A stretch of 64,000 nucleotides of DNA, from assembly GCF_040409955.1 (NCBI RefSeq), contig NZ_CP123384.1, forward strand, positions 2,737,501 to 2,801,500. The letters run 5' to 3'. This stretch comes from Salipiger sp. H15 (lineage in GTDB: Bacteria > Pseudomonadota > Alphaproteobacteria > Rhodobacterales > Rhodobacteraceae). Under the pieces are notes generated by a model. That model had not been told where the DNA came from. It saw only the letters and a program-made list of their open reading frames with translations, and did not search any database. Both the position numbers and the translations under genes were made by a program. Shown here piece by piece: positions 49,694 to 64,000 of this stretch (the stretch's first letter is position 1; every line of letters starts with the position of its first letter).

Positions 49694-50503
49694 TCAGAGA
49701 TCCTGCGCCATCATCTCGCGCGCCGCGGCGAGCCCCAGCCCGTAGGAGATTTCCTCGTACATGTGGTTGAACCCGGCAAAGAGCGCGCGGTTCAGCGCCA
49801 TGCCTTCGGGAGTCGCCGAGATGTCGGTATAGGCGTCGAGCTCCGCGTCCGAAAGCGGCTCGTAGGCCTTCAGCAGGTAGGCATAGAGCCATTCACGCGT
49901 GTCGCTGCGCGTGGCCTCCTCCTGCATCCAGACCTCCTCGACGATTTCCGGCTCGGTCATCTCGAGCCCGCCGCCATCCACCAGCCCGAGGTAGAACTGG
50001 AAGCTGGAGTTGAGCGCGCCGACCACGTTGGTCTCGAGCAGGTCGTTGGCCGCGACGAAGCGGTCGAGCCGGTCGAGTCGCGAATCCTGCCCGACCTCGC
50101 GCCTGCGCAGCGCGTCGCGCGCCTCGGCCTCGACCGCCTCGTCGATCATCTCGCGCCGCGCGCCGAGCTCGAGATCGACCACCTTCTGCCCCTCGTCGCT
50201 GGTGAAATAGGCCAGCAGGGGCGTCACGTCGGTGTCGCCGAGGCTCTGCGCGAATCCGGTCCGCACCACCTCCTCCATCGCCTCGGGCGCATAGAGCCGG
50301 TCGATCGACTGGCGCCAGTTCGCGCTCTCGCCGGCCGGAAGCATGTCCTTGGCGAGGTCGGCGGCATAGCCGCGCCCCTCCTCGCGCATGATCTCGACCA
50401 GATCGTGGATCTTCATCGCGTCCAGCAACGCATCGACGGGATCGGCGTGAACGGGCATGGCGCAAAGGAAGACGGCGGCGCAGGCGGCAAGGCGCGAGAA
50501 CAT
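49694..50503 (-). CDS. DUF2059-like secreted protein
   Basis: A 269-residue protein with an N-terminal signal peptide (MFSRLAACAAVFLCAMPVHA) and a mostly helical, acidic body with DUF2059-type features (MHYEEISYGLGLAAAREMM-like C-terminal helix, YFTSDEGQKVVDLELGARREMIDEAVE). A periplasmic role is inferred; function is unknown. It stands alone. Confidence 0.78.
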   Translation of the reverse strand: MFSRLAACAAVFLCAMPVHADPVDALLDAMKIHDLVEIMREEGRGYAADLAKDMLPAGESANWRQSIDRLYAPEAMEEVVRTGFAQSLGDTDVTPLLAYFTSDEGQKVVDLELGARREMIDEAVEAEARDALRRREVGQDSRLDRLDRFVAANDLLETNVVGALNSSFQFYLGLVDGGGLEMTEPEIVEEVWMQEEATRSDTREWLYAYLLKAYEPLSDAELDAYTDISATPEGMALNRALFAGFNHMYEEISYGLGLAAAREMMAQDL

Positions 50504-50688
50504 GGGCAGGGGGTACTCCGGGTCTGACAGGCCTGAAGCCTAGGGCGCGTCCCGGCCAATTGAAAGGTGACCAAAACCGCCGGTGGCGGAGCTTCGCCGG
50601 AAAAGATTTTCGTCCGGATGAAGAAAGTTGAATTTTCCCTGTTGCACCCCCCCGAGCTTGTCGTTAAACGGCCCCCCACGACCCCCGC

Positions 50689-50778
50689 GGAGAGGTGCCG
50701 GAGCGGTCGAACGGGGCGGTCTCGAAAACCGTTGACCCTGCAAGGGGTCCCAGGGTTCGAATCCCTGTCTCTCCGCCA
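50689..50778 (+). tRNA. tRNA-Ser(CGA)
   Basis: A 90-base type II tRNA with an extra variable arm, as in serine tRNAs. Acceptor GGAGAGG pairs with TCTCTCC (one G-U), discriminator G and encoded CCA. The anticodon loop CTCGAAA gives anticodon CGA, reading TCG, and the T-arm is CCAGGGTTCGAATCCCTG. Two hairpins follow. Confidence 0.95.
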
Positions 50779-50866
50779 CTTTCCCTTCAACGCCCTGAAA
50801 GCGTTGGGAAAGTGACGACCCCGGCGAAAGCCGGAACAGTCTTCCGAACATCGGTGACAAAGCAAG

Positions 50867-50895
50867 GCTCCCCTTCCGGGGAGCTCTTTGCTTTT
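50867..50895 (+). terminator. Terminator of tRNA-Ser
   Basis: A 7-bp stem GCTCCCC/GGGGAGC with loop TTCC, followed by TCTTTGCTTTT. A first hairpin directly after the tRNA (50777-50814, arms CACTTTCC and CAACGC with complements) may add to it. Confidence 0.75.
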
Positions 50896-51016
50896 GTGCA
50901 TCCGGCATCTGCCTCGCCCCGCGAAACCCCTGCCCCGAAATGACAAGGCGGCGCGCGGTTTCTTCCGCGCGCCGCCTGGGCCGGGCATGGTCCGCCTAGC
51001 CGGGGATGTCCGCGGA

Positions 51017-51547
51017 TCAGGCCACCACGTCGGCTTTCGACCCTTCGCTTCCAGATTCCGTCGCGGCACGCGTGGCCGCGTAGGATTCGGCGCCGCGACG
51101 CAGGCGCAGGGCGAGGTCATCCTCCTCGGGCGCCGCCCCCATCTGCGCGATGACCAGCGATTTGACGAAGCTTTCCTGGGTCGAGATCGCCTTGGCGCGG
51201 GCCTCGGCCAGCGTGTCCGCCGCGGCGGGCTCCGCCTCGGCCTCGGGCGCGGTGATGGTGATCGAGCCGCCCGCCGCGGACGTGCCACCCCCGGCAGCCT
51301 CCGCATCCTGCACCTTCGCGGGCGCGAGGGCCGCGGGCTCGCCGGCCTCGGGCTCGGACCCGGAGTCGGGCGCCGCAGCGAGCGGCGCGATGTCCCCGGC
51401 GCCGGAGACCCCGGTCTCCTCGAGTGCCGTTTCCTCTTCAACGGCGGTCGTGCCACCCTGCCCCGAACCCGTGGCGCCCGCGCTCGCGAGCCCGCCGAAC
51501 AGACCCGAATAGCTGCCCGAACCGAGCCCCGAAATCAAACCGAACAT
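51017..51547 (-). CDS. Hypothetical low-complexity protein
   Basis: A 176-residue protein of Ala, Gly, Glu and Ser runs; start MFGLISGLGSGSYSG at 51547. The N-terminal glycine-rich segment could be a membrane hook, and the C-terminal 70 residues (AEARAKAISTQESFVKSLVIAQMG) are helical. I do not recognise it. It is the last gene before the tRNA-Leu fragment. The 319 bases between 51548 and 51866 hold no gene that I can support. Confidence 0.55.
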   Translation of the reverse strand: MFGLISGLGSGSYSGLFGGLASAGATGSGQGGTTAVEEETALEETGVSGAGDIAPLAAAPDSGSEPEAGEPAALAPAKVQDAEAAGGGTSAAGGSITITAPEAEAEPAAADTLAEARAKAISTQESFVKSLVIAQMGAAPEEDDLALRLRRGAESYAATRAATESGSEGSKADVVA

Positions 51548-51866
51548 TACATGGACCTTTCTAGTCGATACCCGGCCCTTCTGGGTGCGAAAGAAGGAAG
51601 AAATGCGGCGCGGGCGCGGACTCAACACGGCGAGGCCGGGGAGTTTTGACGACAGGTCAACACCTTGGCGCATCCGTACGATGCCTCTGGGCAGCGCGCG
51701 TGACGTTTCGGGTCGTCATGTTGAGTGTAGCCCCAGGCCGATCCCGACGCGGCATGACCTCACCACCCCGAGCCGCGCGCGGCAGAGATCGTTTCGGGCG
51801 GTTTCGCCTCGTATCAACGCTGCTGGAACGTGCCGAAAATGACCTGAGGAAATCCCCGCAAGTCAT

Positions 51867-51919
51867 TGGTACCCAAGGCCGGACTCGAACCGGCACGCCT
51901 CGCGGCGGGGGATTTTGAA
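51867..51919 (-). repeat. Truncated tRNA-Leu(CAA) 3' fragment, candidate attachment site
   Basis: On the minus strand this reads as the 3' half of a leucine tRNA: anticodon loop TTCAAAA (CAA), anticodon-stem 3' arm, variable arm, the T-arm GCCGGTTCGAGTCCGGC, acceptor CTTGGGT, A and CCA. The 5' half is missing: sequence past 51919 no longer pairs. Integrated elements at tRNA 3' ends leave such a fragment, so I read this as attL/attR with the element lying to the right. Confidence 0.8.
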
Positions 51920-52386
51920 TTGGGCCAAAAGTGATTTCTTACAATGACATATCTGTGACCCGCTCACTGCAACAAAGCATGAACGAAACTGAAAACCGTG
52001 AGCCACATCGGGAAGGTTTGGCGGTAGGAGTTCGACATCCACGCGGACTGACCGAAACCCGAAATCTCAGAATAAAATCAACGCTCATGGGTCCCATTGA
52101 GGATGTTACGCGCGCCTAGGAAAATCAATGAGTTACGGAGAAGGTGTCCCACGCCCCTGTGAACCGTAGAGAACTTCGGCGTAAATGAGAGGACATACAA
52201 CCTAACACTCTGAAGGTATGTGATAACCTCTTCCCACAGGCACCGCGGAACGTCCCAGACAAAACCATAACAAAACACGAACTTTGGAAAAGCTAGAAGA
52301 CAACCTATAAGCACCTTGAACCACCCACACGCTTTCGTCATTTACTCGTTTCACAAAAGGTGTTTGGTGGAGGGTTCAGAGCGCAA
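51920..52386. other. AT-richer stretch without a clear gene
   Basis: 467 bases between the tRNA fragment and the TIR gene. Base composition drops relative to the chromosome. I see no integrase, although one would be expected near an attachment site; it is probably at the other end of the element. A divergent 87-codon frame at 52078-52341 is listed separately. No other gene is supportable. Confidence 0.5.
52078..52341 (-). CDS. Possible small membrane protein next to the TIR gene
   Basis: An 87-residue frame from an ATG at 52341, divergent from the TIR-ATPase gene. Residues about 8-26 are hydrophobic and aromatic-rich (FKVLIGCLLAFPKFVFCYGF), followed by a WEEVITYLQSVRLYVLSF helix. The ribosome-binding site is weak. 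It may be a phage accessory protein or a chance frame; nothing recognised. Confidence 0.3.
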   Translation of the reverse strand: MTKACGWFKVLIGCLLAFPKFVFCYGFVWDVPRCLWEEVITYLQSVRLYVLSFTPKFSTVHRGVGHLLRNSLIFLGARNILNGTHER

Positions 52387-53859
52387 ATGGAGTATTTGGA
52401 AGATGTTTTCGTAACCGAAGGCGTTCCTCAGTTCACGTTCGTGAAGCCGCCGAACTACACCGCGCTGCTTGTTGACCTGCGCCGCAAGGGCAAGCCTGTC
52501 GTCGTCGAAGGGCAATCGGGCACAGGCAAGACCACGACCGTCAAGAAGGCGCTCGCCGAGATTTTCCCCGACAACACTCCCACGCTTCTTACTCCCCGCG
52601 AGCCCGCCCACCTTCCGATCATCCAGAGCATCGACGAAAGCTCCGGGGACAAGACTTTCGTCGTCGATGATTTCCATCGGCTCGACAAAGCAACGAAAGG
52701 GCGCCTAGCCGACCTCGCAAAGGTGATCGCCGAGCGGGACAACCGCGACGGCCTGCCTAAATTGGTCATTATCGGAATCAACAATGTCGGCTCTGACTTA
52801 ATCCAAATGGTCCCGGACATCGCGAAGCGTATGGCCATTCACCGCATCGCCCCTGGCACGCCCGATGTGATCACCGAGATGATCACGCTGGGCAGCGGAC
52901 TGCTGAACATCGAATTCTCTGCGCCCGAAGCGATCATCGAAGATAGCCGGGGCGACTACTGGCTCACCCAGCAGATCTGCCGCACTATCTGCATTGCTTC
53001 CGGCGTAGACAAAACTCAACCTGAGAAGCTCGGTATCGAATGGGATCCGGACGAGATCAAGAAGCAGGTCGTAGATACGCTGCATCACAACTACGATCCG
53101 GCAGTCCGAGAGTTTTGCCGCGGCCGACGCTTCCGCCCGACGAACGATCCGTACTACAAGCTCCTTAGAGCCGTCTCCGAGCAAGAGCGGTCGAACGTCG
53201 ATCTGAACGAACTCGCGAATGCTCGACAGGACATCAAGGGCAGCATTAACAACGTCAAAGACCACAGGCTTCGCGTTCTACTTGAACAGAAGGAGGCCTG
53301 CGCCCGACTGTTCTACTATGACGCCGACACCAAGAACTTCGCGATCGAAGACCCCGCGCTTTTCTACTACATCCAGAACCTGAACTGGGAAGGGCTGCGC
53401 CAGCGTTGCGGCTTCCGCGATGACCCGCGGGATTTTGAGTGGGACGTTGCCATCTCCTTTGCCGGCGAGAACCGCCCACTTGCTGACTTCATCGGCCAGC
53501 AACTCCGAGAACTCGACATCTCGGTGTTTTACGACCGCAACTACGAGGACAACTATCTGGGTGGCGTATGGTCACAGCAGTTCAATGAAATTTTTGTAGA
53601 GAAATCGCGTATGATCGTCGCCATTCTAGACAATCATCACAAGGAAAAGGTCTGGCCCACCTTCGAGCGCGACTGTTTCACAGTGCGAGTTCCTGCGAAA
53701 GAGGTGATCCCCGTGTTCCTTGATAAAACGATCTTCCCAGGCATCCCGACGGACCTCGTGTCTATCCATTTTCAGTATGACGGGGACGTTGACGCACAGA
53801 AGGATGCGATCATTGACGACGTCGTCTTGCGCATCGCGGGCAAACTCGACGGCCTTTGA
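52387..53859 (+). CDS. AAA-type ATPase with C-terminal TIR domain
   Basis: A 490-residue protein. Residues about 25-250 are an AAA+/STAND-like P-loop NTPase: Walker A GQSGTGKTT at 42-50, Walker B FVVDDFH at 91-97, a sensor-like LVIIGINNVGSDLI. Residues 250-345 are helical. From Trp352 to about 485 lies a TIR domain (WDVAISFAGENRPLADFIG, DISVFYDRNYE, SRMIVAILDNHH) with the glutamate expected of NAD-cleaving TIRs at Glu427 (WPTFERD). Proteins pairing an ATPase sensor with a TIR effector act in abortive anti-phage defence by depleting NAD. The start at 52387 has GGAGGG 12 bases upstream; an in-frame GTG at 52360 lacks one. Single gene: no partner joined to it. Confidence 0.85.
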   Translation: MEYLEDVFVTEGVPQFTFVKPPNYTALLVDLRRKGKPVVVEGQSGTGKTTTVKKALAEIFPDNTPTLLTPREPAHLPIIQSIDESSGDKTFVVDDFHRLDKATKGRLADLAKVIAERDNRDGLPKLVIIGINNVGSDLIQMVPDIAKRMAIHRIAPGTPDVITEMITLGSGLLNIEFSAPEAIIEDSRGDYWLTQQICRTICIASGVDKTQPEKLGIEWDPDEIKKQVVDTLHHNYDPAVREFCRGRRFRPTNDPYYKLLRAVSEQERSNVDLNELANARQDIKGSINNVKDHRLRVLLEQKEACARLFYYDADTKNFAIEDPALFYYIQNLNWEGLRQRCGFRDDPRDFEWDVAISFAGENRPLADFIGQQLRELDISVFYDRNYEDNYLGGVWSQQFNEIFVEKSRMIVAILDNHHKEKVWPTFERDCFTVRVPAKEVIPVFLDKTIFPGIPTDLVSIHFQYDGDVDAQKDAIIDDVVLRIAGKLDGL

Positions 53860-53866
53860 AGCCTAG

Positions 53867-54114
53867 CAGGCTGCTAAAGAAGTCACGGATACCACCGCCG
53901 GAGCCGCATCGAGACAAAGATGCACTGTGTGAAGTTTCTGGGGCAGCGCCTTATGGCGCGGGCCTTCGCCCGTCAGGTCGTTGAACTCCAGGTCCGCATC
54001 GCCGTCCTGAACGGATACACCGCGCTCGGCATACCCGTCACGGAAGCTGCGGGATAAGTCCCTCCGGGGAAAGGGGAACCTCGGCCAACACCCGATTTGT
54101 CAAACAGAGTCGCC
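53867..54114 (+). mobile_element. IS5-family remnant(s)
   Basis: From 53867 a sequence close to the terminal repeat of the IS at 57124 (AGGCTGCTAAAGAAGTC against AGGCCACTGAAAAAGTC), directly after CTAG, a YTAR site as used by IS5 elements. Then codons 53920-54057 read as a transposase C-terminus of about 45 residues (MHCVKFLGQRLMARAF, GYTALGIPVTEAAG), as in IS903-type IS5 transposases, with CCGATTTGTCAAACAGAG near 54092-54110 resembling the opposite end of that subgroup. It is probably two broken elements joined. No complete transposase. Confidence 0.65.
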
Positions 54115-54519
54115 TTTACATACGGACGACCGCGACCTCGACACTACTTGAAAAAGTAGCTTGCCAGAATCGAGCGTGAGACGCAGGCTCGAATGGATAC
54201 AAAACATTCAGCTGTGTCCAACCTCCCGTGGATTGCAAGGCGATTACCAATCACGGTCAGCACTTGTTAGAACGCCGGGCAAGGAGCGAACACCCTCTCG
54301 GACTAAAGGCAATGAGCCCTTCATCGTGGCGCGTAACCTTTGTCAACCGAGAATGGCGTGAAAGTTCCTATATTGAGGAAAGCGCTGGGTGCGGCGAGAG
54401 AAATTCCAGTTCATGACGCCAAGATACTATCAAGTCAGTTAATTCCGAAAAAATTACGTAAAAATCTCCAAATCTCTCCAATCTTGAGTTTCACAATAGA
54501 GAATTCATCAGGGAAAACC
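54115..54519. other. Upstream region of the three-gene operon
   Basis: 405 bases without a gene I can support; AT-rich. Overlapping short frames (54161-54361, 54228-54416) do not resemble known proteins. The 120 bases before 54520 are very AT-rich and probably contain the operon promoter, but I cannot pick one pair of boxes with confidence. Confidence 0.4.
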
Positions 54520-54777
54520 ATGGGTGATCACGTTACGCCGATCGATATGAAAATGCCAAACGGCCGTCCGGTTTTGGAGATTCCGTTTGGCACCACTGTA
54601 ACTGAGATCGAATCAGTTCGCTTTGAAATTGACTCATTGCGGGCCAACGACAGTAGTGAAACCTTTGAGCGCGATCTGCTTGCGCTCGAGACCAAGCTCC
54701 GGGACGCATATGCGAAACTCGCCGCCAAAGCAGCAACGAAGGTGGCAATGTGGAAGCCCGGACCTAAGCTTAAATAA
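54520..54777 (+). CDS. Hypothetical small protein, first gene of the phosphotransferase-like operon
   Basis: An 85-residue protein, start ATG at 54520 with AGGGA six bases before it. A same-frame start at 54340 (TTG) or 54358 (GTG) would add 60 or 54 residues, but neither has a ribosome-binding site and that stretch looks like promoter DNA. Residues 1-30 may form a beta structure (MPNGRPVLEIPFGTTVTEIE); 35-75 form an amphipathic helix. No domain recognised. Its TAA overlaps the next ATG (TAATG), so the two are made together. Confidence 0.6.
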   Translation: MGDHVTPIDMKMPNGRPVLEIPFGTTVTEIESVRFEIDSLRANDSSETFERDLLALETKLRDAYAKLAAKAATKVAMWKPGPKLK

Positions 54778-55688
54778 TGCCACCGACCGCCGAACTAAGG
54801 GACGTAGAATTCGTCCGCGCCTTGCGAAAAGAGCTTTGGTTGCCAGCTCTCTCGTTGCGCTTGCCAGAAATTAATGTGCTGCACGTACCACTCATTTATG
54901 CGTCGCGCAGCGATCATATATTAAGAGCCTATGTGCTTGCCGTACGCAGTTTTCTCAAACAGGAGTGGGATCAATCTGATCCCACGCTAGTGGTAGATGA
55001 TCTGGTGCTGCACTTTACACATGCAGCCCTTGAAATCGCGATAACTGCGCGACGAGGAAAAATATATCGCAACGCCGCTCTCATTTCCAAGTTATTGAAG
55101 GCTATAGCTGATGCAACACCGCTTCCAGAACACGTTCTGACATTTGAGGCAATGCTTTCAGAAGGAAAAGTCATTAGCGAGACAGACATAAATCAAGCCA
55201 TCTTCGTTCTCTCGCGCGCGATCGAAGTCAATCTCGCTAATCCTTTCATAGCTGAAGATGCGGCGGACGCCGCAGATCAAGGCTGCCCGCTAAACTTGCC
55301 GAAATTTAATCACCTCAGTCTCTACTTGAAGGCCAGAGGACTTCTCCTCGACTCGCCCGATAGCAGCCGAGAGACAAGAGATTTATTCACTGAGCACTTC
55401 GGATTTCTAGACCGCGAAACTAGGCATCGAACTAGCTTAGCCGAGGTCGCAACCTATCGAGGAATCCCATCAATCGATACAAGCTCTACGCGGCATGGGG
55501 TACTTGATGACGTTTTGATGTTGATGCAGCCTGTAATTTCAGAACTTGACCCATTGGTTTGGATCGACAAACCCGGAGCATTGCTGGAACTCCTCCAATA
55601 TCAAGAGGAATGGCGCCACTACTGGCAGACCCGCCTCGAGAGAGTTCTCCTAATTACTTTTCGGCAACACGACGAGCGCGTTTCTTGA
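54777..55688 (+). CDS. Hypothetical helical protein, second gene of the operon
   Basis: A 303-residue protein, mainly alpha-helical; start overlaps the previous stop by one base. No known domain was recognised and no signal peptide or membrane helix is seen. Base composition is much lower in GC than the host chromosome and codon use is different (CTT, AAT, ATA present), so it is acquired. It is fully coupled to the PEP-utilising-like protein, so the two probably form a complex; it could supply the missing acceptor-binding part of that enzyme, which is only inference. Confidence 0.75.
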   Translation: MPPTAELRDVEFVRALRKELWLPALSLRLPEINVLHVPLIYASRSDHILRAYVLAVRSFLKQEWDQSDPTLVVDDLVLHFTHAALEIAITARRGKIYRNAALISKLLKAIADATPLPEHVLTFEAMLSEGKVISETDINQAIFVLSRAIEVNLANPFIAEDAADAADQGCPLNLPKFNHLSLYLKARGLLLDSPDSSRETRDLFTEHFGFLDRETRHRTSLAEVATYRGIPSIDTSSTRHGVLDDVLMLMQPVISELDPLVWIDKPGALLELLQYQEEWRHYWQTRLERVLLITFRQHDERVS

Positions 55689-56920
55689 ATACACTCGAGG
55701 AATCACCTAAGGCGACCGGCCTGGCGCGGATGGCGGAACTAGGGCTGGACGTACCAACCTTCACCGTTATTAAGTGGCAAGATTTGTGCGATATTGCCGG
55801 CGGGAGCAATCCAATTAATACCTTGTCAGCGAGAATAGATTCCGCCTTACCTCCGCTGAGGCCTTCTGAGAATTACCCAGTGAGCATTCGATCCGCATCG
55901 CTCCGCGAAGGCGGTGAAAAGTCATCTGCTACCGGCCACTTTAAATCGTTTAATGGCATCACAAATTCAGTGATTGCCGCTCGAGCGGCACTAGAAATTT
56001 GGCTCGATCACCAAGAGATTACGGGTGGCGACCCGCGTTGCAGCGTAATTATACAGGAGACAGTGTGCGCCGCTATTTCTGGATTATTACGGATTGATGG
56101 AGGCAATGACTTCTATGCTGAGGCTTTCCCTGGCAGCTGTCGCAACATCACAGCCGGAAATGTTAATCCATTCGTATTGAATTTCGTCGGAAAGCGCTGG
56201 TCTGTAAACTTACCACAAATCGGAAGCAGGGAAATTTTCTTCGCTGACTGGCGTTTATTTAAAGAAGATGGTCGCTACCTTCCGCCAGGAAGCTCTCTAA
56301 TTCCCACGACGTGGTTCCCTGTTAGTCGAGTGCGCCTCTACCATAACACAAGAGATGGTGAACTGGTTGTCTACGGCGAGCCGAGAGCAACACATAGGGA
56401 AATTCTGGAATTTATTGGGGAAAGACTGACAGTTCTGGGCGCCCAAATCTCATCAGCCCACACCGCTGTCGGATTGGAGTTGGAATGGGCATTTGATCCA
56501 AATGGCCGACTGCGCATTCTTCAATTAAAGAAAATCTCTAGAACCACCAAGGGTCACAATAAGGATGGCCCAGTGCAAATCTTGCAGCCGACAGCGTCGG
56601 CGGTGAGTAGCAAAGAGAAATGCCTGCTCCAAGGCTTGGCCGGCTCACCCGGGAAATTAAGGGGCGTAATATTCCACGATGACGCGCCAATCGGTGCCGG
56701 TGACGTTCTATTCCTGTATGAAGCCAGCACTGCCAATCTCGAGAGAATTCTCTCTAGCAGCGCTATTGTTTCTGCGAAAGGCGGGAGATTGTCACATGTA
56801 GCTAGCCTCTGCCGCGAACTCGGAAAGCCCTGCGTGACGGGCATCATTCACGAGTTCATTACCGGAGACGAAGTGGAGGTAGATGGAACGGCGGGCACCG
56901 TCCGAATTCTGCGGCGTTGA
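55685..56920 (+). CDS. PEP-synthase-like ATP-binding plus phosphohistidine swivel protein, no acceptor domain
   Basis: A 411-residue protein. Residues about 45-290 read as the ATP-binding N-terminal domain of PEP synthase, pyruvate phosphate dikinase and rifampin phosphotransferase (Arg69 in SIRSAS, VIIQETVCAAISG, EAFPGSC..GNVNPF, ELEWAFDPNGRLRILQLK). The usual LQxRPI Arg is replaced: Gln280-Leu-Lys282-Lys283-Ile. Residues about 310-411 are the swivel domain with His371 in GGRLSHVASLCRELGKPCVTG, the phosphorylated residue of the family. Missing is any PEP/pyruvate barrel or antibiotic-binding domain. The start is TTG at 55685 overlapping the previous stop (TTGA). It should phosphorylate something through its His. 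Confidence 0.8.
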   Translation: MNTLEESPKATGLARMAELGLDVPTFTVIKWQDLCDIAGGSNPINTLSARIDSALPPLRPSENYPVSIRSASLREGGEKSSATGHFKSFNGITNSVIAARAALEIWLDHQEITGGDPRCSVIIQETVCAAISGLLRIDGGNDFYAEAFPGSCRNITAGNVNPFVLNFVGKRWSVNLPQIGSREIFFADWRLFKEDGRYLPPGSSLIPTTWFPVSRVRLYHNTRDGELVVYGEPRATHREILEFIGERLTVLGAQISSAHTAVGLELEWAFDPNGRLRILQLKKISRTTKGHNKDGPVQILQPTASAVSSKEKCLLQGLAGSPGKLRGVIFHDDAPIGAGDVLFLYEASTANLERILSSSAIVSAKGGRLSHVASLCRELGKPCVTGIIHEFITGDEVEVDGTAGTVRILRR

Positions 56921-57123
56921 TTAGCGTCGCGCTCTTGGCCTGTGTGTCATAGAATTTTCCAGATGCTCGAACTCAGGTATCAAACTGAGTATCATGAGAA
57001 AAAAATCATAACGACGGCTTTTGACTGATTTCTGCCGGCGCAATGTTGCAGTATTGCAGGTAGCTCTTTGCGCCGCGTGTCCCGTCCAAGTGTTATGCTG
57101 GGCATATGCTTCTAGCCAATTAG

Positions 57124-58243
57124 TAGGCCACTGAAAAAGTCAGCTGGGAGCAACGATGTCCCTTGAGCTGGAGCTCGATGCACCCAGGTGTGCGAGGAGG
57201 CAGTCCGAGTAGCCGCTTTCCGGCTCAGGTGGCGAGCAGTTTCGGCAGCCTCGCGAGGTTGCGGGCCGCCATGGCCAAGGTGAAGCGGGCCCGCACACGT
57301 TCGATGCCGCGATACAGGGTCTGCGCCATGCCGCCCACGGTTTCGACCCAGCCGAAAGGTTCCTCGATCTTCTTCCGGCGCCGCTGCGATTGGGCGTAGC
57401 CGGGGTGCTGGGCGGTTCTGCCGTCGATGGCGGAGTGTCGGGACTTCTGGGCGACATGCGGCGTGACCACCATTTGGCGCAGCTCGGCGACGAAGTCCGC
57501 GCTGTCGTAACCGCGGTCCGCTGCCAGGGTTAGGCGCCGGGTCGATCCCGGCGAGTGGCGGTGAAGCATGTCGATGGCAGCACGCCGCGCGGCGTGGCCG
57601 TCCGCCCGCGTCAGGTCGGACTGCACGATCAGGCCGGAGCGGTTCTCCATCAGGCGGCCTTCGCCCGTTCAGTGCTGCGAAAGCGGTGCTTTCGCGGACG
57701 CATCTCACCCATGAAGCACAGCATGGCGCTGGCGCCGGGGGACTTCTTGAACAGGCGGGCCTCCGGATTGGTTATCGAAGCATGGGTCGCGTTCGACCGT
57801 CGTTCGCCACGGAGGTCGACTTCGGCGTTGCGGTTACGGCGTGTGGGGCGGGTCATCGGGTCGGGCTCGGCGTTGGACTGGTCAGAGGAGGATGCGGGCG
57901 GCGCCGCTGCCATCTGGTGGATCGCCGGGACCCTCGCCCTGCCCGACGTCGCTTCTTCCTTCGGCTGGAAACTCTTCATAGACGCCCAGGCCTTCACCAG
58001 GGTTCCGTCGACCGCGAAAAGATCGTCCAAGAGCAGCGGCGCCACCTCGCGATGCGCCAGGATGGCGGCCATGATCTTGCGCAGCGGGTGTCGCGCCAGA
58101 ACGCGCTCCTCGAGATCGACGCAGCTGAATAGCGAGCCCGTCGCCTGATCTGATCCACGCATCCCACACTCCGACTCATCGTAGTGGCGACGGTGAATCA
58201 TGTACCACGTCAGACGTCGAGGAAGGAGTTTTTCAGCGGCCTG
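57124..58243 (-). mobile_element. Defective IS5-group insertion sequence with TTAG target duplication
   Basis: 1120 bases bounded by 17-base imperfect inverted repeats (57125-57141 AGGCCACTGAAAAAGTC; 58226-58242 reverse complement of AGGCCGCTGAAAAACTC, 15 of 17 identical) and flanked by TTAG on both sides (57120-57123, 58244-58247), the YTAR 4-base duplication of IS5-group elements. The transposase inside is broken; the element may have been moved in trans. Confidence 0.9.
57225..58162 (-). pseudogene. IS5-family transposase, internally deleted and frameshifted
   Basis: Read from MRGSDQATGSLFSCVD at 58162. It goes from ERVLARHPLRKI directly to MAAILAHREVAPLL, dropping roughly 110 family residues that include the first catalytic Asp region, then continues VDGTLVKAWASMKSFQPKE, NATHASITNPEARLF and LCFMG. 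After that a 55-base insertion near 57655-57715 shifts the frame; the C-terminus MENRSGLIVQSDLTRADGH... to LARLPKLLAT (57225-57650) is in another frame. The DDE triad is therefore incomplete, so it is inactive. Confidence 0.88.
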
Positions 58244-58375
58244 TTAGGCCTGGCTGAAGGATTCACTGCGCTAGCCACGAAAAGTAGCCCAGAACTGCAA
58301 GCGTTTGAACGGTCCTAGTCCAGAAGTTCCGGATCACTCATCCCGCCGCCGTACTTCGTACAGCGCCGCCTCCAT

Positions 58376-58531
58376 TCACTCAGCGAGGCCCTGCTCCGGC
58401 GCTCCAGACTGCGCGAGCCACATCCAACTGCGCTCGAAACCCTGAAGCATGGCCGCGTAGATGCGACCGACCGGACGCTCATCCCTGAGTATTTCCCAGT
58501 CGTTATAGACGTCGTCCCGGCTCGCCACCAT
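58376..58531 (-). pseudogene. Remnant of a small hypothetical protein
   Basis: A 51-residue frame (MVASRDDVYNDWEILRDERPVGRIYAAML, WMWLAQ). The WEI..GRPVGRIY..W.W layout is typical of small conserved alphaproteobacterial proteins, but it stops after about 50 residues while those are nearer 90, so it looks truncated. A longer upstream frame is not credible. Confidence 0.4.
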
Positions 58532-58662
58532 CGTTCGTCTGCGCGTCCATATGGGAGATGAGATAAAGGCAGCGCAGAAAGGAAAAGCCCGGCGGAAGGC
58601 CGGGCAGTCTGGGAAGTAAAAGGACATGGTCCTGTCTTTGCCGGAGATCAGCGTGGCCCCAG

Positions 58663-58893
58663 TCAAGTCTTCCCGCCAAGCGCCTTGACCCAGCGCGACC
58701 AGGCGAAGGTGCTGCCGGAGACCAGCCCCCAGATCACCACCGCCGCGGCGATCGAGGCGGCGTTGACGTCAATGCTGAGGATTCCGCTCGCCTTGTCGAA
58801 GTCGGCGAAGGGCAGCGTGGCCGCGAGGCCGGCCAGCGGCAGGAGGATGAAGACGCGCAGCAGCAGCGCGATCTGTCCGGTGAGGTTCAGCAT
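58663..58893 (-). CDS. Holin-like small membrane protein
   Basis: A 76-residue protein with two hydrophobic helices (about 5-28 and 45-65) and a short basic C-terminus (WSRWVKALGGKT), the layout of phage holins. It lies two genes after the endolysin on the same strand, where holins often lie. The start has AAAGGACA six bases upstream. No sequence family was identified, so holin function is inferred from size, topology and position. Confidence 0.6.
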   Translation of the reverse strand: MLNLTGQIALLLRVFILLPLAGLAATLPFADFDKASGILSIDVNAASIAAAVVIWGLVSGSTFAWSRWVKALGGKT

Positions 58894-58992
58894 GGGAATG
58901 TCCTTTCGGGTAGCGCTCTCGGCGCGGAGGGAAGCGGCGCGCGGCCGCGGAACGCACCAGCGCCAGTCGCCGGTCAGTGATCGGGATAAGGA

Positions 58993-59283
58993 TCAGCACG
59001 GGCGCCAGACTCCCGCCTGGAGCCAGCCGTGCCAGTGGCTTTGCCAGTTGACCGAGGGCGCGAGCTCGGGCGCCTCGCTCGAGCCGTTCCAGCACCAGCT
59101 CGGACCGTGCCTCGGCTTGAAGCCGTTGCCGATCTTCAGCACCGAGGTCTCGCCGCAGCCGCAGGGGCAGAAGAAGAGGAATCTCTGCTCGCCATCCTCT
59201 TCCGGCCCGCTGATCCAGAACGAGCCAGGGAGCCGATCCTCGAGGAAACGGTTGCGGTCGCGGTAGTGGGCGGCCCGGGTCAT
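58993..59283 (-). CDS. DUF6527-like phage protein
   Basis: A 96-residue protein with a CPCGCGE motif followed by a late PSVNWQSHWHGWLQAGVW segment, the layout of the DUF6527 family found in phages. The paired Cys (CPCGCG) may bind zinc. Its start overlaps the endolysin stop (ATGA), so it belongs to the lysis-region transcript. Function unknown. Confidence 0.7.
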   Translation of the reverse strand: MTRAAHYRDRNRFLEDRLPGSFWISGPEEDGEQRFLFFCPCGCGETSVLKIGNGFKPRHGPSWCWNGSSEAPELAPSVNWQSHWHGWLQAGVWRPC

Positions 59284-59957
59284 GCCGGAACCGCCTTGCC
59301 GAAGACGGAAGAGAGAAAGCGCAGGAGCGCGGCTAATAGGTCGGTCTCACCGAAGGCCTTCGCGTGGGCACCGTCCTCAAAAGCCTTGGGCGCGGGGATG
59401 CTGGCCGAGCTGCGCGCGAGCATCACGCCCCGGTCGACCACGCCGTAGTCACTCTCCTGCACGCCCTCGTGCGCGCCCATGACCCGGCGGGTCCAGCCGG
59501 TGCCAAAGGTGGCGAAGGCCCTCAGGGTGCGCATCCAGCGCAGGCGCCTGGAGCAGAGCGCCACGACGAGCTGCGCGGGGTCGCGCTCGAGGATCGCCGC
59601 GAGGGTGCGCATCCCCATGACCCCATCCGCCTCAGTGCCGACGAGCTCCTGAACGAAGCGCACCGCGCGCGCCGGGCCGGAGTTCACCGCGAAATCGTAG
59701 AGCGCGTAGTCGACGCCGGCCGGGAGCCGGTCGCCCCAGACCTTGTCCCAGTATTGCTCGCGATAGATCGCGTCGCGTTCGCGGGCCTCGAGGAGGCGCA
59801 CGTCGCGCGCGGGCAGACCCATGACCTTGCGCCAGGCGTCATAGGTCCGCTGGGTGATGCCCTGGTTGGTGGCGCCGCCCGGGTCTTTCGGGTGGTTCAC
59901 GAGTCCTCCCTCGTGGATCAGGAGCCACGGCTGGCAGGTGTCGAAAGTCGCGCGCAT
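59280..59957 (-). CDS. Glycoside hydrolase family 108 endolysin
   Basis: A 225-residue N-acetylmuramidase-type phage lysin. The catalytic Glu16 lies in the HEGGLVNHPKDPGGATNQGIT motif of the GH108 family, with the peptidoglycan-binding-3 domain beyond residue 90 (YALYDFAVNSGPARAVRFVQELVG). It degrades peptidoglycan at the end of the lytic cycle. No signal peptide is seen, so it probably needs the holin. The last 60 residues are a divergent tail. Confidence 0.9.
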   Translation of the reverse strand: MRATFDTCQPWLLIHEGGLVNHPKDPGGATNQGITQRTYDAWRKVMGLPARDVRLLEARERDAIYREQYWDKVWGDRLPAGVDYALYDFAVNSGPARAVRFVQELVGTEADGVMGMRTLAAILERDPAQLVVALCSRRLRWMRTLRAFATFGTGWTRRVMGAHEGVQESDYGVVDRGVMLARSSASIPAPKAFEDGAHAKAFGETDLLAALLRFLSSVFGKAVPA

Positions 59958-60390
59958 GTGGTTCTCCCATGCGAATGGGCCCGCGCCATGGCGGGCGTGA
60001 AGAAAGCGAAAAAAGTCGTGGGATGTGGCGGTGATCGCGGCGGGTGAGCGTGACTTCTGGGAGGGTGTGCAGCTTCAGCTGCCCCGGATCTTCACCGCCC
60101 AATGCTCCGCCGCGCTCGCCCTGCCCTGAGGTAATCGCTTGATAACCGGCATCCGAGCCGCACCTTTGGCTTGGGCGTGGCAACCAATCCGCCTCGGCTT
60201 CGCGTCAAGTTGACGAGGCACATGCCACGCCCACCCTCGACAAGCGGCTCTCTGCTCACCGCGCCTGTTCGCAGGAACCCGACGCGGTCCCGCGGGTTTG
60301 CCCGTGGAGCGCGGCCTGAACTCTGCCAGCAGGTTCCTTCACCCCCAACCAGGGCATTCCCTGTTCCTGGAAAGCGAAGGCGGGCCGCGT
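59958..60390. other. Gap between endolysin and the coiled-coil protein, with a nested inverted repeat
   Basis: 433 bases without a gene I can support. They include a two-tier hairpin at 60173-60232: outer arms GGGCGTGGCA and TGCCACGCCC (10 bp), inner arms GCCTCG and CGAGGC (6 bp). A 100-codon frame on the minus strand (60092-60394) does not look like a protein. Confidence 0.55.
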
Positions 60391-60675
60391 TCACCTCCCC
60401 TGCTGAGACAGCCGGTCGAGCTTGCCGTCGATCTTCTGGAGCGTTGCCTGGATGCTGCGAAGGTCAGAGGCCTGTCCGGCCTGGGTGAGCTCGGCCGCCC
60501 GGAGGCGCCCGTCCATCCCCCGCCAGCCCTCCTCGAGCCGGGCGATCGACAGCGCCTGGGTCTCCTGCGTGTTCGTGAGCGTCACGTAGCCCGCCGTCAC
60601 GGTGACCATCATCGCGAGGATGGAGAGGATATTGCCGGTGCTCACCGTGCTGTCGAACTTGATCTGCGGCATCAT
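60391..60675 (-). CDS. Small phage protein with membrane helix and coiled coil
   Basis: A 94-residue protein: a hydrophobic segment at about residues 14-32 (GNILSILAMMVTVTAGYVTL), then a long helix of heptad-like repeats (LSIARLEEGW, LRAAELTQAGQASDLRSIQATLQKIDGKLDRLSQQ). This is the layout of phage spanin-like or lysis-accessory proteins that sit between tail and endolysin genes. Function inferred from layout. Confidence 0.65.
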   Translation of the reverse strand: MMPQIKFDSTVSTGNILSILAMMVTVTAGYVTLTNTQETQALSIARLEEGWRGMDGRLRAAELTQAGQASDLRSIQATLQKIDGKLDRLSQQGR

Positions 60676-60735
60676 GAAGTCCCCAAAGAAAGGCCCGCCT
60701 GAAGCGGGGTCACGTCGTCTCGATTTCCGCCAGGG

Positions 60736-61059
60736 TCAGGCCAGCGGCCGGGCCCAGTCGATGTCCGGCAGCGCCGCGAGGATCTCGGCCGCGCTCACCT
60801 CCGCGTCCGCGTCCTGCATCTGTACCGCGCGCAGCCAGACGTCGTCGCGCCAGAGCGCGAAACGCGCGGCCTCTTCCTGGAAGCTGACCTGGTTGCTGAG
60901 CGCCCAGGAGATCAGGCTGTCGGCCGAGCTGTAGCCGCGCGCCTGCGCGGTCTGGTCGAGCCGCGCCTGGATGGCGGCGTCGATCTCGCGCCGGCGCCGG
61001 GCGGCCGCCTCCGCCTGCCGCACCTCGGCGGTGATGGCCCGTGTCCAGTCGATGGTCAT
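60736..61059 (-). CDS. Phage tail-associated protein
   Basis: A 107-residue protein: charged helical, with IDAAIQARLDQTAQARGYSSADSLISWALSNQVSFQEEAARFALWRDDVW, the pattern of small phage proteins encoded beside tail fibres (DUF4376/DUF6950-like helical chaperones). Four-base overlap (ATGA) with the next tail gene upstream. Function not fixed. Confidence 0.65.
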   Translation of the reverse strand: MTIDWTRAITAEVRQAEAAARRRREIDAAIQARLDQTAQARGYSSADSLISWALSNQVSFQEEAARFALWRDDVWLRAVQMQDADAEVSAAEILAALPDIDWARPLA

Positions 61060-61391
61060 TGCGCGCCCTCCGCCTGGTCTTGCGGCAGCGCGAAGGGCGG
61101 CACGTCGATCGCACCCTCCGGGGCGTCGAGCACCGGCTCGGGGAAAAAGTCCGGCCGCGCCGCGTGCGGCAGGTTGAGCGTGAGGCTCAGCACGCCGGCC
61201 TCGTCGCGCTCGATCATGCCGAAGAAGAGCCCGCCCTCGATCGCCTCGGCCGGCAGCGCCGCGCCGGCGCCGAGCTGCGCGAAGTCGAGCGCCTCGCCAT
61301 TCACCGTCAGCACGTCGCCTTGCCTGTGCAGCGAGGTGATCCGGCGGAAGTCGTTCATCGCGGGCACGATGGGGTTCCAGTAGATGTTCAT
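61056..61391 (-). CDS. Hypothetical phage tail protein
   Basis: A 111-residue protein starting MNIYWNPIVPAMNDF at 61391, mostly beta by its pattern (VLTVNGEALDFAQLG, LFFGMIERDEAGVLSLTLNLPH). It ends in a Pro-rich acidic tail. It overlaps the next gene by four bases and lies between tail-fibre genes. No known family is recognised. Confidence 0.7.
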   Translation of the reverse strand: MNIYWNPIVPAMNDFRRITSLHRQGDVLTVNGEALDFAQLGAGAALPAEAIEGGLFFGMIERDEAGVLSLTLNLPHAARPDFFPEPVLDAPEGAIDVPPFALPQDQAEGAQ

Positions 61392-61402
61392 GGTGATGCC
61401 TT

Positions 61403-62344
61403 TCAGAACCAGCGGCCGACGGCCATCCAGTAGAGAACCTGGGTGCCGGTGGTGGAGGTGGCGGCGAAGAAGACCGGGGTGAAGCTCGAGGCGGTGACAG
61501 CCGAGACCGAGGCCCAGGTGCTGTTGCCGCGCAGGTTCACCTGTACCGAGGGCGCGACCGTGAAGGAGGCGGGGAAGGAGATCGCCGGCTGCGCCGTGTC
61601 GTTGAAGACGGTGCCCGTGGCGGTCGAGATTGCGATCGCCTGGCTGTCGATCCGGTTCCAGCAGAGTTGCGTGCCGTCGGCGAAGCGGACGTAGGACCCG
61701 TTCGCGTTGCTGCCGTAGGTCGGGATCAGTGGCACCCATGTCGACCAGGTCACGCCGTTGTCCTGCGAGCGCCGGATGAAGGCGACCGTGCTGTTCGCCC
61801 CGAAGACGATCTGGGTCAGCCAGCTCGCCCCGTACCGGATCACCAGTACCGCGCCGCCCGTGCTGATGGGGTTCTCGGGATCGGTCGACGCGAACTGATG
61901 CACGCCCGAACTCAGGGCCTCGCTCAGAAGCTTGGCGGTCTGCTGATTGCCGGGCTGTCCCCAGCCATATGCCCCAGCGAGAAGTCCGCGCCCGGCGGTA
62001 GTGTCGTGAATTCCGGACTGGAAGGTGACGGTGCTCGGCCCCTGCAGCAGCAGCGCCCAGTACTCGGCGTTGGAGCCGGGTGCGATGCCCTGCGACGGCT
62101 GCAGCGCCTGCCAGAGCGAGCCGTTGTGCGCGCGCGTCTCGGACATGGCGATGAAATCCCCGGCCAGCCACGCCGGGCTCTCCGGATTGTCCCTCGGGAA
62201 GTATTTCCCGGTGTTCCACATCGCGAGCCAATCGGCCTTGGAGAGCGGCGACTCCCCGGCGCCGGTGACGATCTCGACATAGGCCTGGTAGCCCCGGTCG
62301 GGCGGCGCCACCGCGCCGCCGCCGATCAGATCAACGAGCGCCAT
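61403..62344 (-). CDS. Phage tail fibre-like protein
   Basis: A 313-residue protein: an N-terminal attachment segment (DRGYQAYVEIVTGAGE, SKADWLAMWNT), a beta-rich shaft with SWLTQIVFGANSTVAFIRRSQDNGVTWSTWVPL and a C-terminal beta domain (TAQPAISFPASFTVAPSVQVNLRGN). The SWLTQ...TWSTW repeat-like element is typical of tail fibre tip domains. It is probably part of host recognition. Confidence 0.78.
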   Translation of the reverse strand: MALVDLIGGGAVAPPDRGYQAYVEIVTGAGESPLSKADWLAMWNTGKYFPRDNPESPAWLAGDFIAMSETRAHNGSLWQALQPSQGIAPGSNAEYWALLLQGPSTVTFQSGIHDTTAGRGLLAGAYGWGQPGNQQTAKLLSEALSSGVHQFASTDPENPISTGGAVLVIRYGASWLTQIVFGANSTVAFIRRSQDNGVTWSTWVPLIPTYGSNANGSYVRFADGTQLCWNRIDSQAIAISTATGTVFNDTAQPAISFPASFTVAPSVQVNLRGNSTWASVSAVTASSFTPVFFAATSTTGTQVLYWMAVGRWF

Positions 62345-62379
62345 GCTCCACCTCCTTCTGCGTGGTCATGTCGGGCCCC

Positions 62380-63192
62380 TCAGACGAACTTGTTCATGCA
62401 GGCGCGCCAGTCCTGCGCGACGATCTCGGCGACCGGGCGGTCATAGGCACCACCGAGCTTGCAGGCGGCAGTCTTGTAGATCGTCGCCACGTGGTTGCCG
62501 GCGAGCTTGGTGCTGACCGGCCCCGAGGCCTGCAGCGAGGCTGGGCCATTGGGGTTCACATCCATCAGCACGCCGTTGACGAAGAGGCTGAGCTTCGTGC
62601 CCTCGCGCGCGAAGGCGATCTGCCGCGGCGAGCCCTGCCCCACGCCTTCGGTCCCGAGGACCGACTGGCCGGCGCTGCCGGTTCCCACGGCCCCGCGCGG
62701 GACGGTGCCGCCGAGCCCGAGGTCCATCCAGAGCGAGGCCGCGTTGGCATTGCTGATGCTGTCCCAGAGGATCGGCGCGTAGTTGGCGGTGTTGAACCCG
62801 GTGAGCGTCTGCTTGTCCCAGACCACAGCGAGGAAGTCGTCGTTATCGAGGTAGAAGTCCTGCGAGCCGTAGGTGAACTCGACGAAGTCCGTCACGTTGT
62901 GGGTGCCCGCGGGGAACACGAGGCCGCCGCGGCCGGCCACCTGCGTGATCGTCGCGCCGGCGTTGCGCAGCGTGCCGCCCCGGCCCTGCAGGGTCGGATC
63001 GCCCGGATCGCGCGCGAGGCTGACGAACTTCGTGCCGGTTGCCGGGATCGGCGCCTCGGTCGGGTTGCAGAACGGGTTGGTGAAGTCGAGGCACCAGACC
63101 CAGTCCTCGAGGCCAAGGATCGGGTCGCGCTCGATGCGCTGGCGGGAGGGGTCGGTGATCCGGTTGTCCGAGCGGAGGATGGTGGAGTTCAT
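62380..63192 (-). CDS. Phage tail protein with lectin-like fold
   Basis: A 270-residue protein starting MNSTILRSDNRITDPSR at 63192. The middle part (AVVWDKQTLTGFNTANYAPIL, FAREGTKLSLFVNGVLMD) looks like a concanavalin-type beta sandwich that could bind host glycans. The C-terminal Cys-bearing helix (CKLGGAYDRPVAEIVAQDW) shares the AYDRPVAEIVAQ-like end with neighbours. Assigned as tail or fibre by position. Confidence 0.65.
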   Translation of the reverse strand: MNSTILRSDNRITDPSRQRIERDPILGLEDWVWCLDFTNPFCNPTEAPIPATGTKFVSLARDPGDPTLQGRGGTLRNAGATITQVAGRGGLVFPAGTHNVTDFVEFTYGSQDFYLDNDDFLAVVWDKQTLTGFNTANYAPILWDSISNANAASLWMDLGLGGTVPRGAVGTGSAGQSVLGTEGVGQGSPRQIAFAREGTKLSLFVNGVLMDVNPNGPASLQASGPVSTKLAGNHVATIYKTAACKLGGAYDRPVAEIVAQDWRACMNKFV

Positions 63193-63203
63193 GGCATGCC
63201 CTT

Positions 63204-64000
63204 TCAGAGAACCCAGCCGCGCGCGCGCAGCTGCTCGGCGACGATTTCCGCGACGACCTGGTAGCCCGCGGCGTTGAGGTGGAGGTTGTCCGTCCGGAGG
63301 CTGGACGGCGGGACGTCGTTGGCGATGTCGGTCAGGTCCTGCGCGGTGGGCGCGATCCAGGCCCGGGTCAGCCCCTCGCTGATCAGCAGGCGGCGGATGT
63401 CGACGAACTCGCCCGGATAGGTGGCCTCGAGGTCGGCGTTCAGCCCGGTGATCGTGGCGTAGCGCGCGCCGCCAACATGCTCCTCGGCATCGTAGTCGCC
63501 GTTCAGCACCGACAGCACGAGGAAGCGGCGGTTCCCCCGGTCGAGCTGGGACACGCAAAGGGCGATATGCGCCTTGATCGTGTCCGGGTCGGCGTTGTTG
63601 TTCCGGCCGAGCCAGAGGATGTCGATGCCGCCCTGCTTCAGCGCCTCGGTAAAGCGCATCGGCGATTGCGCCGGGCAGGTCACCGGAAGGTTGGTGCTGC
63701 CCGTCGGGGTGAAGGTGTAGACTTCGGCCGTCGAGGGCGGCCCGCCCGTCGCCGTGCGCCTGAGCACGCCCTCGACGCCCTGGATCGTCACGATGGCCTT
63801 GCGCTCGAGATTGCCGGACTGGGACGAGAGCGGGAATGGCTGATCCTTGTCCGGCGCCATGCCGCCCGAGGTCGCGAGCGTCACGCCCTCGATGGCGGTG
63901 ATCGTGTTGGCCCCGTTCACGATCTGGTTGCCGGCGAGCGTCACGCGCGGCACCTTCCCGCCCTGGCGCATCGAGATCTGCGTCGAGGTCTGCGCGCCGA
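63204..64000 (-). CDS. SGNH/GDSL-type phage tail protein, 5' end outside window
   Basis: At least 265 residues; the reading frame is open past base 64000, so the start is not seen. It has an SGNH-hydrolase-like C-terminal half: ILWLGRNNNADPDTIK (Asn-bearing block) and the final DNLHLNAAGYQVVAEIVAEQL with the DxxH pair of the family. The first Gly-Asp-Ser block is not clear (PVTCPAQSPM region), so activity is uncertain. Such domains remove acetyl groups from host surface polysaccharides. Confidence 0.75.
   Translation of the reverse strand, partial: GAQTSTQISMRQGGKVPRVTLAGNQIVNGANTITAIEGVTLATSGGMAPDKDQPFPLSSQSGNLERKAIVTIQGVEGVLRRTATGGPPSTAEVYTFTPTGSTNLPVTCPAQSPMRFTEALKQGGIDILWLGRNNNADPDTIKAHIALCVSQLDRGNRRFLVLSVLNGDYDAEEHVGGARYATITGLNADLEATYPGEFVDIRRLLISEGLTRAWIAPTAQDLTDIANDVPPSSLRTDNLHLNAAGYQVVAEIVAEQLRARGWVL

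Follow-up and report, generated by a model that had tools for sequence, protein, structure and literature searches.

We find that three overlapping genes of Salipiger sp. H15 are a cargo operon of a 44.6 kb prophage, and that the last of them appears to encode a phosphotransferase of the phosphoenolpyruvate (PEP) synthase type whose chain includes no acceptor domain, a reading supported by its domains and residues. The three genes, here called the trio, span positions 54520-56920 of the 64,000-nucleotide stretch that was analysed (the window; contig NZ_CP123384.1, positions 2,737,501 to 2,801,500) and encode proteins of 85, 303 and 411 amino acids (aa), the gene for the last of which is referred to as gene 3. 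An earlier note, made from the letters of the window, had proposed a new phosphotransfer system plausibly engaged in defence; the prophage location is new relative to that note. Our best explanation as a whole, to which we give a probability of roughly 0.35, is that the prophage carries an operon in which the gene 3 product would be charged with phosphate, the 303-aa protein would form the acceptor side, and the purpose would be anti-phage.

Layout of the trio

The three open reading frames (ORFs), together with their overlaps (TAATG between the 85-aa and 303-aa genes, TTGA between the 303-aa gene and gene 3), can be read directly from the sequence and are as the earlier note described them. 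The low guanine-cytosine (GC) content that it reported is likewise present: the trio region has 0.50-0.51, and the DNA flanking the low-GC stretch has 0.63-0.73. Under a codon model trained on the neighbouring low-GC genes, with the gene under test excluded, the in-frame scores are +0.170 for the 85-aa gene, +0.065 for the 303-aa gene and +0.015 for gene 3, and the other five frames are negative for each. This is supportive but no proof, because positive scores also arise just upstream of the 85-aa gene in the same frame (+0.014) and in a frame on the opposite strand of the neighbouring TIR gene (+0.065). The TTG start of gene 3 is required to retain Lys9, the next in-frame ATG being residue 16. 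Promoter and terminator scans of 53800-57300 stayed at chance level, and an Rfam scan of 50000-60000 found a tRNA at 50689 only.

Domains and residues of the gene 3 protein

The earlier note described gene 3 as an ATP-binding domain and a phosphohistidine swivel domain carrying His371, with neither a barrel nor an antibiotic domain, and on this Pfam, hhalign and the reading of individual residues agree. Residues 338-404 match the Pfam family PEP-utilizers (PF00391) at E=9.4e-13, and no further Pfam family was found in the protein, neither a PEP/pyruvate barrel nor an antibiotic-binding domain. The Pfam family PPDK_N reaches 20.2 bits, below its cut-off of 27; the ATP-grasp domain is nevertheless clear, because hhalign aligns residues 8-410 with the family of the closest relative (P0006) at a probability of 99.2% (E=7.6e-20). 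The carrier His in its GGxxxH loop lies within SAKGGRLSH, which satisfies the HpeH consensus T/SxxGGxxxH given in the excerpted text of PMC12167813.

In the excerpts of the study of rifampin phosphotransferase (RPH; PMC4844700), the substitutions Lys22Ala, Arg117Ala and Thr136Val abolish or nearly abolish resistance, Glu297Ala remained active, and the carrier is His825. By alignment and counting, these five positions correspond to K9, R69, S88, E267 and H371 of gene 3. K9, R69 and E267 are invariant and S88 is nearly invariant in our alignment A2, although E267 is weak evidence of an intact ATP site, since the RPH mutant at that position stayed active. The Arg of the LQxRPI element is indeed replaced by Lys, read directly at residue 282, and gene 3 thus has LQxK in place of the LQxR typical of the ATP-grasp/swivel dikinase superfamily, a conservative change. 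The gene 3 protein is probably enzymatically active. An AlphaFold2 model of it has a mean predicted local distance difference test score (pLDDT) of 67.2 with several weak stretches, the longest being 176-234 and 288-310; its best Foldseek matches in the PDB are pyruvate phosphate dikinase (PPDK), RPH and HpeI, with TM-scores by query length of at most 0.51.

Whether gene 3 is what remains of an interrupted PEP synthase was checked. Gene 3 ends 40 residues after its carrier His, compared with 273-441 residues in 17 long PEP synthase/PPDK ORFs of the fetched loci. Of 120 proteins of the P0006 family, the 119 with the searched motif continue for 42-83 residues past the His, and the last residues of gene 3 align with the end of P0006. 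When the DNA downstream of gene 3 was compared with the 17 PEP synthase/PPDK ORFs, the best match had E=0.046, and 26 of 300 random surrogates reach E<=0.05. A truncated PEP synthase was rejected: gene 3 is not a stump, its end resembles that of proteins with a C-terminal swivel, and nothing above chance lies downstream.

Relatives of gene 3

A protein-database search with gene 3, in which scoring was confined to the 7992 candidates with the most words in common, returned four proteins at E<=0.001, including itself, with P0006 as the closest match (E=7.4e-11). Matches occur in 45 of 61 related genomes and, at E<=1e-7, in 70 of 398 genomes of the phylum, both counts including the genome itself; all the other matches in these two sets lie in open frames of at least 509 residues, mostly of PEP synthase/PPDK size, and the swivel sequences closest to that of gene 3 are those of PPDK. 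The P0006 family consists of uncharacterised proteins of ~570 aa from gut Bacilli and Clostridia, in which an N-terminal domain precedes the ATP-grasp/swivel core; a search for the family scored 7994 proteins, of which 1262 had E<=1e-5, and the best 120 were aligned. The N-terminal domain in this family (P0006, P0009-P0127) is helical and carries a conserved KxWQDxQH stretch.

Proteins with the same two domains also stand elsewhere. Nonomuraea gerenzanensis encodes one of 429 aa, directly followed by a gene of the histidine-phosphatase superfamily (L071:3216-5110), and these two genes possibly form a charge/discharge pair. The best viral structure match (E=4e-15) is gp139 of Bacillus phage G, a stand-alone two-domain protein of 365 aa (L108:4468-5565), beside which no neighbour resembling the 303-aa protein was detected. 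Because such acceptor-less two-domain proteins occur elsewhere, the lack of an acceptor domain is not unique to the operon; it is an uncharacterised condition, and alone it is not new. Besides the PPDK-like gene of the lytic phage G, lytic phages of Stenotrophomonas and Vibrio encode PPDK-like proteins of 645-686 aa (L066, L067, L109), and in phage Summit tyrosine phosphatase genes lie a few genes beyond the PPDK-like gene.

The partner proteins

As the earlier note had stated, the two upstream genes match nothing known: neither the 303-aa nor the 85-aa protein has a family match in Pfam, PADLOC, NCBIfam or PHROGs up to E=10, and none of the three trio proteins matches PADLOC-DB 2.0.0 up to that value. 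Among 4924 scored candidates of the protein database the 303-aa protein found itself only, and among 385 genomes of the class only its own genome (1/385); plasmids and the genome_contigs, viral_contigs and phages collections held no relative of it, and its best PDB match has E=0.21. The 85-aa protein has nothing significant in the family libraries, plasmids, phages or viral_contigs, the protein database and genome sets lying outside that search. Folded alone, the 303-aa protein gives a low-confidence model (mean pLDDT 43.8) that predicts helices throughout.

Three more specific identities were considered and rejected. An HPr-like carrier role for the 85-aa protein was rejected because of its single His and the absence of any family match, and a kinship of the same protein with the C-terminal extension of a 545-aa Deinococcus protein described below because 274 of 1000 shuffles score as high. 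The third, the 303-aa protein as a split-off P0006 N-terminal domain, was rejected by profile comparison, in which hhalign gives a probability of 0.3%; the faint echo of it at the WQD motif of the P0006 family (P0120) has E=11 and so falls well short of significance. Within the searches made, the trio appears to be a single occurrence, and with no relative of the 303-aa or 85-aa protein found, singly or together, a separation of the genes in other genomes was neither seen nor excluded.

Comparison with known dikinases

The closest precedent for the trio is the set of two-component dikinases HpeHI, CreHI and PpsAB, divided at a different point. According to the excerpted text of PMC12167813, these have the acceptor site in another chain than the ATP-grasp domain; the likeness to the trio lies in ATP-grasp and swivel chemistry that is split over proteins, with the acceptor site outside the ATP-grasp chain. 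They also share the swivel motif T/SxxGGxxxH with gene 3, and the Ser before the His is found in CreH and PpsA as described there. However, they fuse the swivel to the acceptor domain and leave the ATP-grasp domain alone (PMC12167813, same excerpts), whereas gene 3 fuses the swivel to the ATP-grasp domain, and the 303-aa protein shows no match to an RPH-type acceptor domain.

Both RPH and HpeH have a further domain that contains the acceptor site, as the portions of PMC4844700 and PMC12167813 drawn on here describe. RPH resembles gene 3 in having an ATP-grasp domain and a C-terminal swivel with the carrier His, with corresponding ATP-site residues (PMC4844700, in those portions), but gene 3 is without the rifampin-binding (RIF) domain that lies between them. 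PEP synthase and PPDK share with gene 3 the order of ATP-grasp and then swivel, yet gene 3 has no PEP/pyruvate barrel. The P0006 family has the same two-domain core in one chain rather than three, and its N-terminal domain has no detectable kinship to the 303-aa protein; gp139 of Bacillus phage G is alike in being a stand-alone ATP-grasp/swivel protein in a phage. By its sequence, gene 3 would work like an RPH- or HpeHI-type dikinase up to the charged His, but it falls outside PEP synthase/PPDK for want of a barrel, outside RPH for want of a drug domain and outside HpeHI because it is split differently.

The prophage and its cargo slot

The prophage is bounded by attL (Table 1) and a second att copy at genome position C1:2833968, 44.6 kb away, beyond the integrase and outside the window. 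Ten ORFs were scanned between the two copies: three have no match, and each of the other seven resembles either a phage-type family or a cytosine methylase, the matched families including an integrase, an S24 repressor, a gpA terminase, a lambda-type portal, a capsid with ClpP and a GH108 endolysin. In three other genomes the left flank lies so close to the tRNA-Leu side (~90 bp in G394, ~70 bp in G393 and 949 bp in G389) that no prophage is present between them. Another species (G397) has a related prophage at the same tRNA, with an integrase-to-tRNA stretch that is 78% identical and an identical 35-bp repeat ~49 kb off. Further prophage candidates were noted in G400 and G390 by integrase and in G924 by lysis DNA. 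On the integrase side of the Salipiger prophage, a 500-aa protein of lower GC (L086:5007-6509), with no Pfam or PADLOC match, is perhaps a second cargo gene.

Table 1 Features of the trio and of the surrounding prophage (positions in the window)
Feature	Position	Strand	Remarks
Gene 1 of trio, 85-aa orphan protein (P0003)	54520..54777	+	ATG start
Gene 2 of trio, 303-aa orphan protein (P0002)	54777..55688	+	ATG start
Gene 3 of trio, 411-aa ATP-grasp and phosphohistidine-swivel protein (P0001)	55685..56920	+	TTG start; carrier His371
490-aa P-loop NTPase with C-terminal TIR domain (P0004)	52387..53859	+	TIR_2 E=8.7e-9
Multi-copy repeat between TIR gene and trio	53886..54111		Probable insertion-sequence relic, not so annotated in records seen
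IS5-family element between trio and lysis genes	57198..58083		Related to ISRsp13, 91.7% identity
attL	51866..51920		55 bp repeating the 3' end of tRNA-Leu(CAA): 35 bp, one mismatch, 19 bp
Window portion of the 44.6 kb prophage	51866..64000		
GH108 endolysin of the prophage	59280..59957	-	Lysis-side edge of cargo slot

The cargo slot is the low-GC stretch between attL and the lysis genes, and it holds the TIR gene, the repeat, the trio and the IS5 element, the transposase frame of which is split over two ORFs (57225-57650 and 57650-58201). The neighbouring TIR protein that the earlier note had invoked is real (Table 1); it also matches PADLOC PDC-S59 (2.8e-11) and phrog_6841 (9.5e-22), with nSTAND models below cut-off, and its gene is a transcription unit apart from the trio. 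The corresponding slot in G397 encodes a 991-aa SIR2/STAND protein (L100:7856-10831; SIR2_2 3.8e-17, nSTAND_NTPase4 6.1e-8; in PADLOC, LmuA 2e-20 and ThsA 1.6e-16), together with a HicB-like antitoxin and a protein of 256 aa for which no family passes its cut-off. On contig C2 of the Salipiger genome, a second locus has 4.7 kb of lysis/tail DNA in common with the prophage, at 90%; here the slot is recognised by the shared lysis/tail genes, and toward tRNA-Cys (L106:8280-12813) it holds a 581-aa NTPase (PADLOC PDC-S49, 4.4e-20) and another protein, of 708 aa, that has no PADLOC match and by eye resembles a trypsin-like protease joined to a part like formylglycine-generating enzyme. All three slots examined thus contain one or more PADLOC-matching genes, and this content is what makes a defence role of the operon plausible; we put the odds of a defence-type role at about even.

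Proposed mechanism and alternative explanations

We infer the chemistry of the trio from homology and the partnership of its products from gene order. Gene 3 would be a minimal dikinase-type phosphotransferase, in which the ATP-grasp domain binds ATP and a phosphate of ATP is loaded onto His371 of the C-terminal swivel domain. The swivel would then turn and deliver the phosphate to an acceptor outside the chain, which must be external because gene 3 has no acceptor domain of its own. The translationally coupled 303-aa protein would most likely provide the taker, either as a site of its own or as a ligand that it holds, and the 85-aa protein would serve as a small accessory subunit; the overlapping genes would suit a complex whose subunits are produced in constant proportion, and the likeliest purpose would be to protect the lysogen against other phages. 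That the 303-aa protein is the acceptor or its holder is a tentative assignment, its chances somewhat short of even. The new phosphotransfer system of the earlier note accordingly survives in part: the acceptor-less phosphotransferase, the overlapping partners and the defence-like prophage slot stand, and the acceptor role of the 303-aa protein stays conjectural. The most novel version, an antiviral phosphohistidine relay of the prophage in which a pared-down ATP-grasp/swivel enzyme takes up phosphate and relays it to an acceptor bound by the helical orphan protein encoded beside it, is rather unlikely as it stands; title-level listings of the open-licence literature gave no ATP-grasp/swivel enzyme in a phage-defence system.

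A possible pointer to a partner of the 303-aa type comes from a plasmid of Deinococcus sp. QL22 (L068:3674-6341), on which a gene for a 545-aa ATP-grasp/swivel protein, with ~100 residues after the swivel that have no Pfam match, overlaps a gene for a 348-aa protein without known function. A stretch of 21 residues is alike in the latter (EEEYRHIWQDRFQRAL) and in the 303-aa protein (QEEWRHYWQTRLERVL), and in pairwise comparison the two proteins reach E=6e-4 by BLASTP and E=8.7e-4 by hhalign (probability 23%), with 0 of 2000 shuffles scoring as high. The likeness was first spotted by eye among neighbour genes, and because it was picked out in this way the pair is a lead only. No relative of the stretch was found in genome_contigs (71 pattern matches), viral_contigs or phages; in the 398 phylum genomes there are nine matches at E<=0.1, one being the own locus and eight, with E of 0.004-0.085, being taken as noise. 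Between the Deinococcus 348-aa protein and the P0006-family N-terminal domain, hhalign gives a probability of 0.2%. As judged from sequence, the Deinococcus gene pair is a faint pointer, not significant on its own.

Several observations weigh against our explanation of the trio. Among the 1779 ORFs and proteins of this study, the Deinococcus 348-aa protein is the best non-self match of the 303-aa protein, but at E=0.63, and from the Deinococcus side the 303-aa protein (E=0.39) comes after three other non-self places, of which two had been fetched for similarity to the Deinococcus protein; moreover, the rest of the one protein against the rest of the other scores 26, below the shuffle mean of 34.7. 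No relatives of the 303-aa and 85-aa proteins were found by which the partnership might be judged from evolution. The probable insertion-sequence relic lies between the trio and the TIR gene, the PADLOC match in the window belongs to the TIR gene and none to the trio, and two slots besides its own were all that were examined. Activity may be reduced by the Lys that stands for Arg in LQxR.

Two alternatives, each of which we consider fairly improbable, retain the activity of gene 3. The trio might serve lysogenic-conversion metabolism, phosphorylating a small molecule such as a phenol, drug or nutrient for the benefit of the host, with no antiviral role. The characterised relatives with a similar core, HpeHI and RPH, do act on small molecules (excerpts of PMC12167813 and PMC4844700), and on the Deinococcus plasmid the genes lined up with a similar core include those for a phosphopantetheine-binding protein, an ABC transporter and hydrolases, one of the latter an alpha/beta hydrolase, but PADLOC-matching genes occur in all three slots and no metabolic genes adjoin the trio. 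Alternatively, gene 3 might phosphorylate a macromolecule (a host or phage protein, a nucleic acid or the 85-aa protein), the 303-aa protein being a sensor or regulator that turns gene 3 on rather than the holder of an acceptor. Pairs of sensor and effector are common in defence operons, and the 85-aa gene is the first of the operon; however, the family-library searches recognised no sensor domain in the 303-aa protein, and the 85-aa protein, with its one His, has no carrier-protein match. A decaying remnant, that is, a functionless piece of a larger PEP-synthase- or RPH-like gene caught between insertion sequences beside unrelated ORFs, would be in keeping with the repeats or insertion sequences on both sides, the Arg to Lys change, the partners without relatives and the much longer chains of PEP synthase/PPDK past the carrier His, but is distinctly improbable: the three overlapping frames are intact and have a coding signal, the residues of the ATP site and the carrier are conserved, the chain ends much as proteins with a C-terminal swivel do, and the match downstream is at chance level.

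Significance

If a phosphate-charged gene 3 product working with the 303-aa protein against phages is the true account, the chemistry of PEP synthase and rifampin phosphotransferase would join the reactions used against phages, and the trio would represent another way of dividing a dikinase over several proteins. Both claims are testable with one small operon. Moreover, the slot between the tRNA-side att and the lysis genes is a place in which to seek further candidate defence genes.

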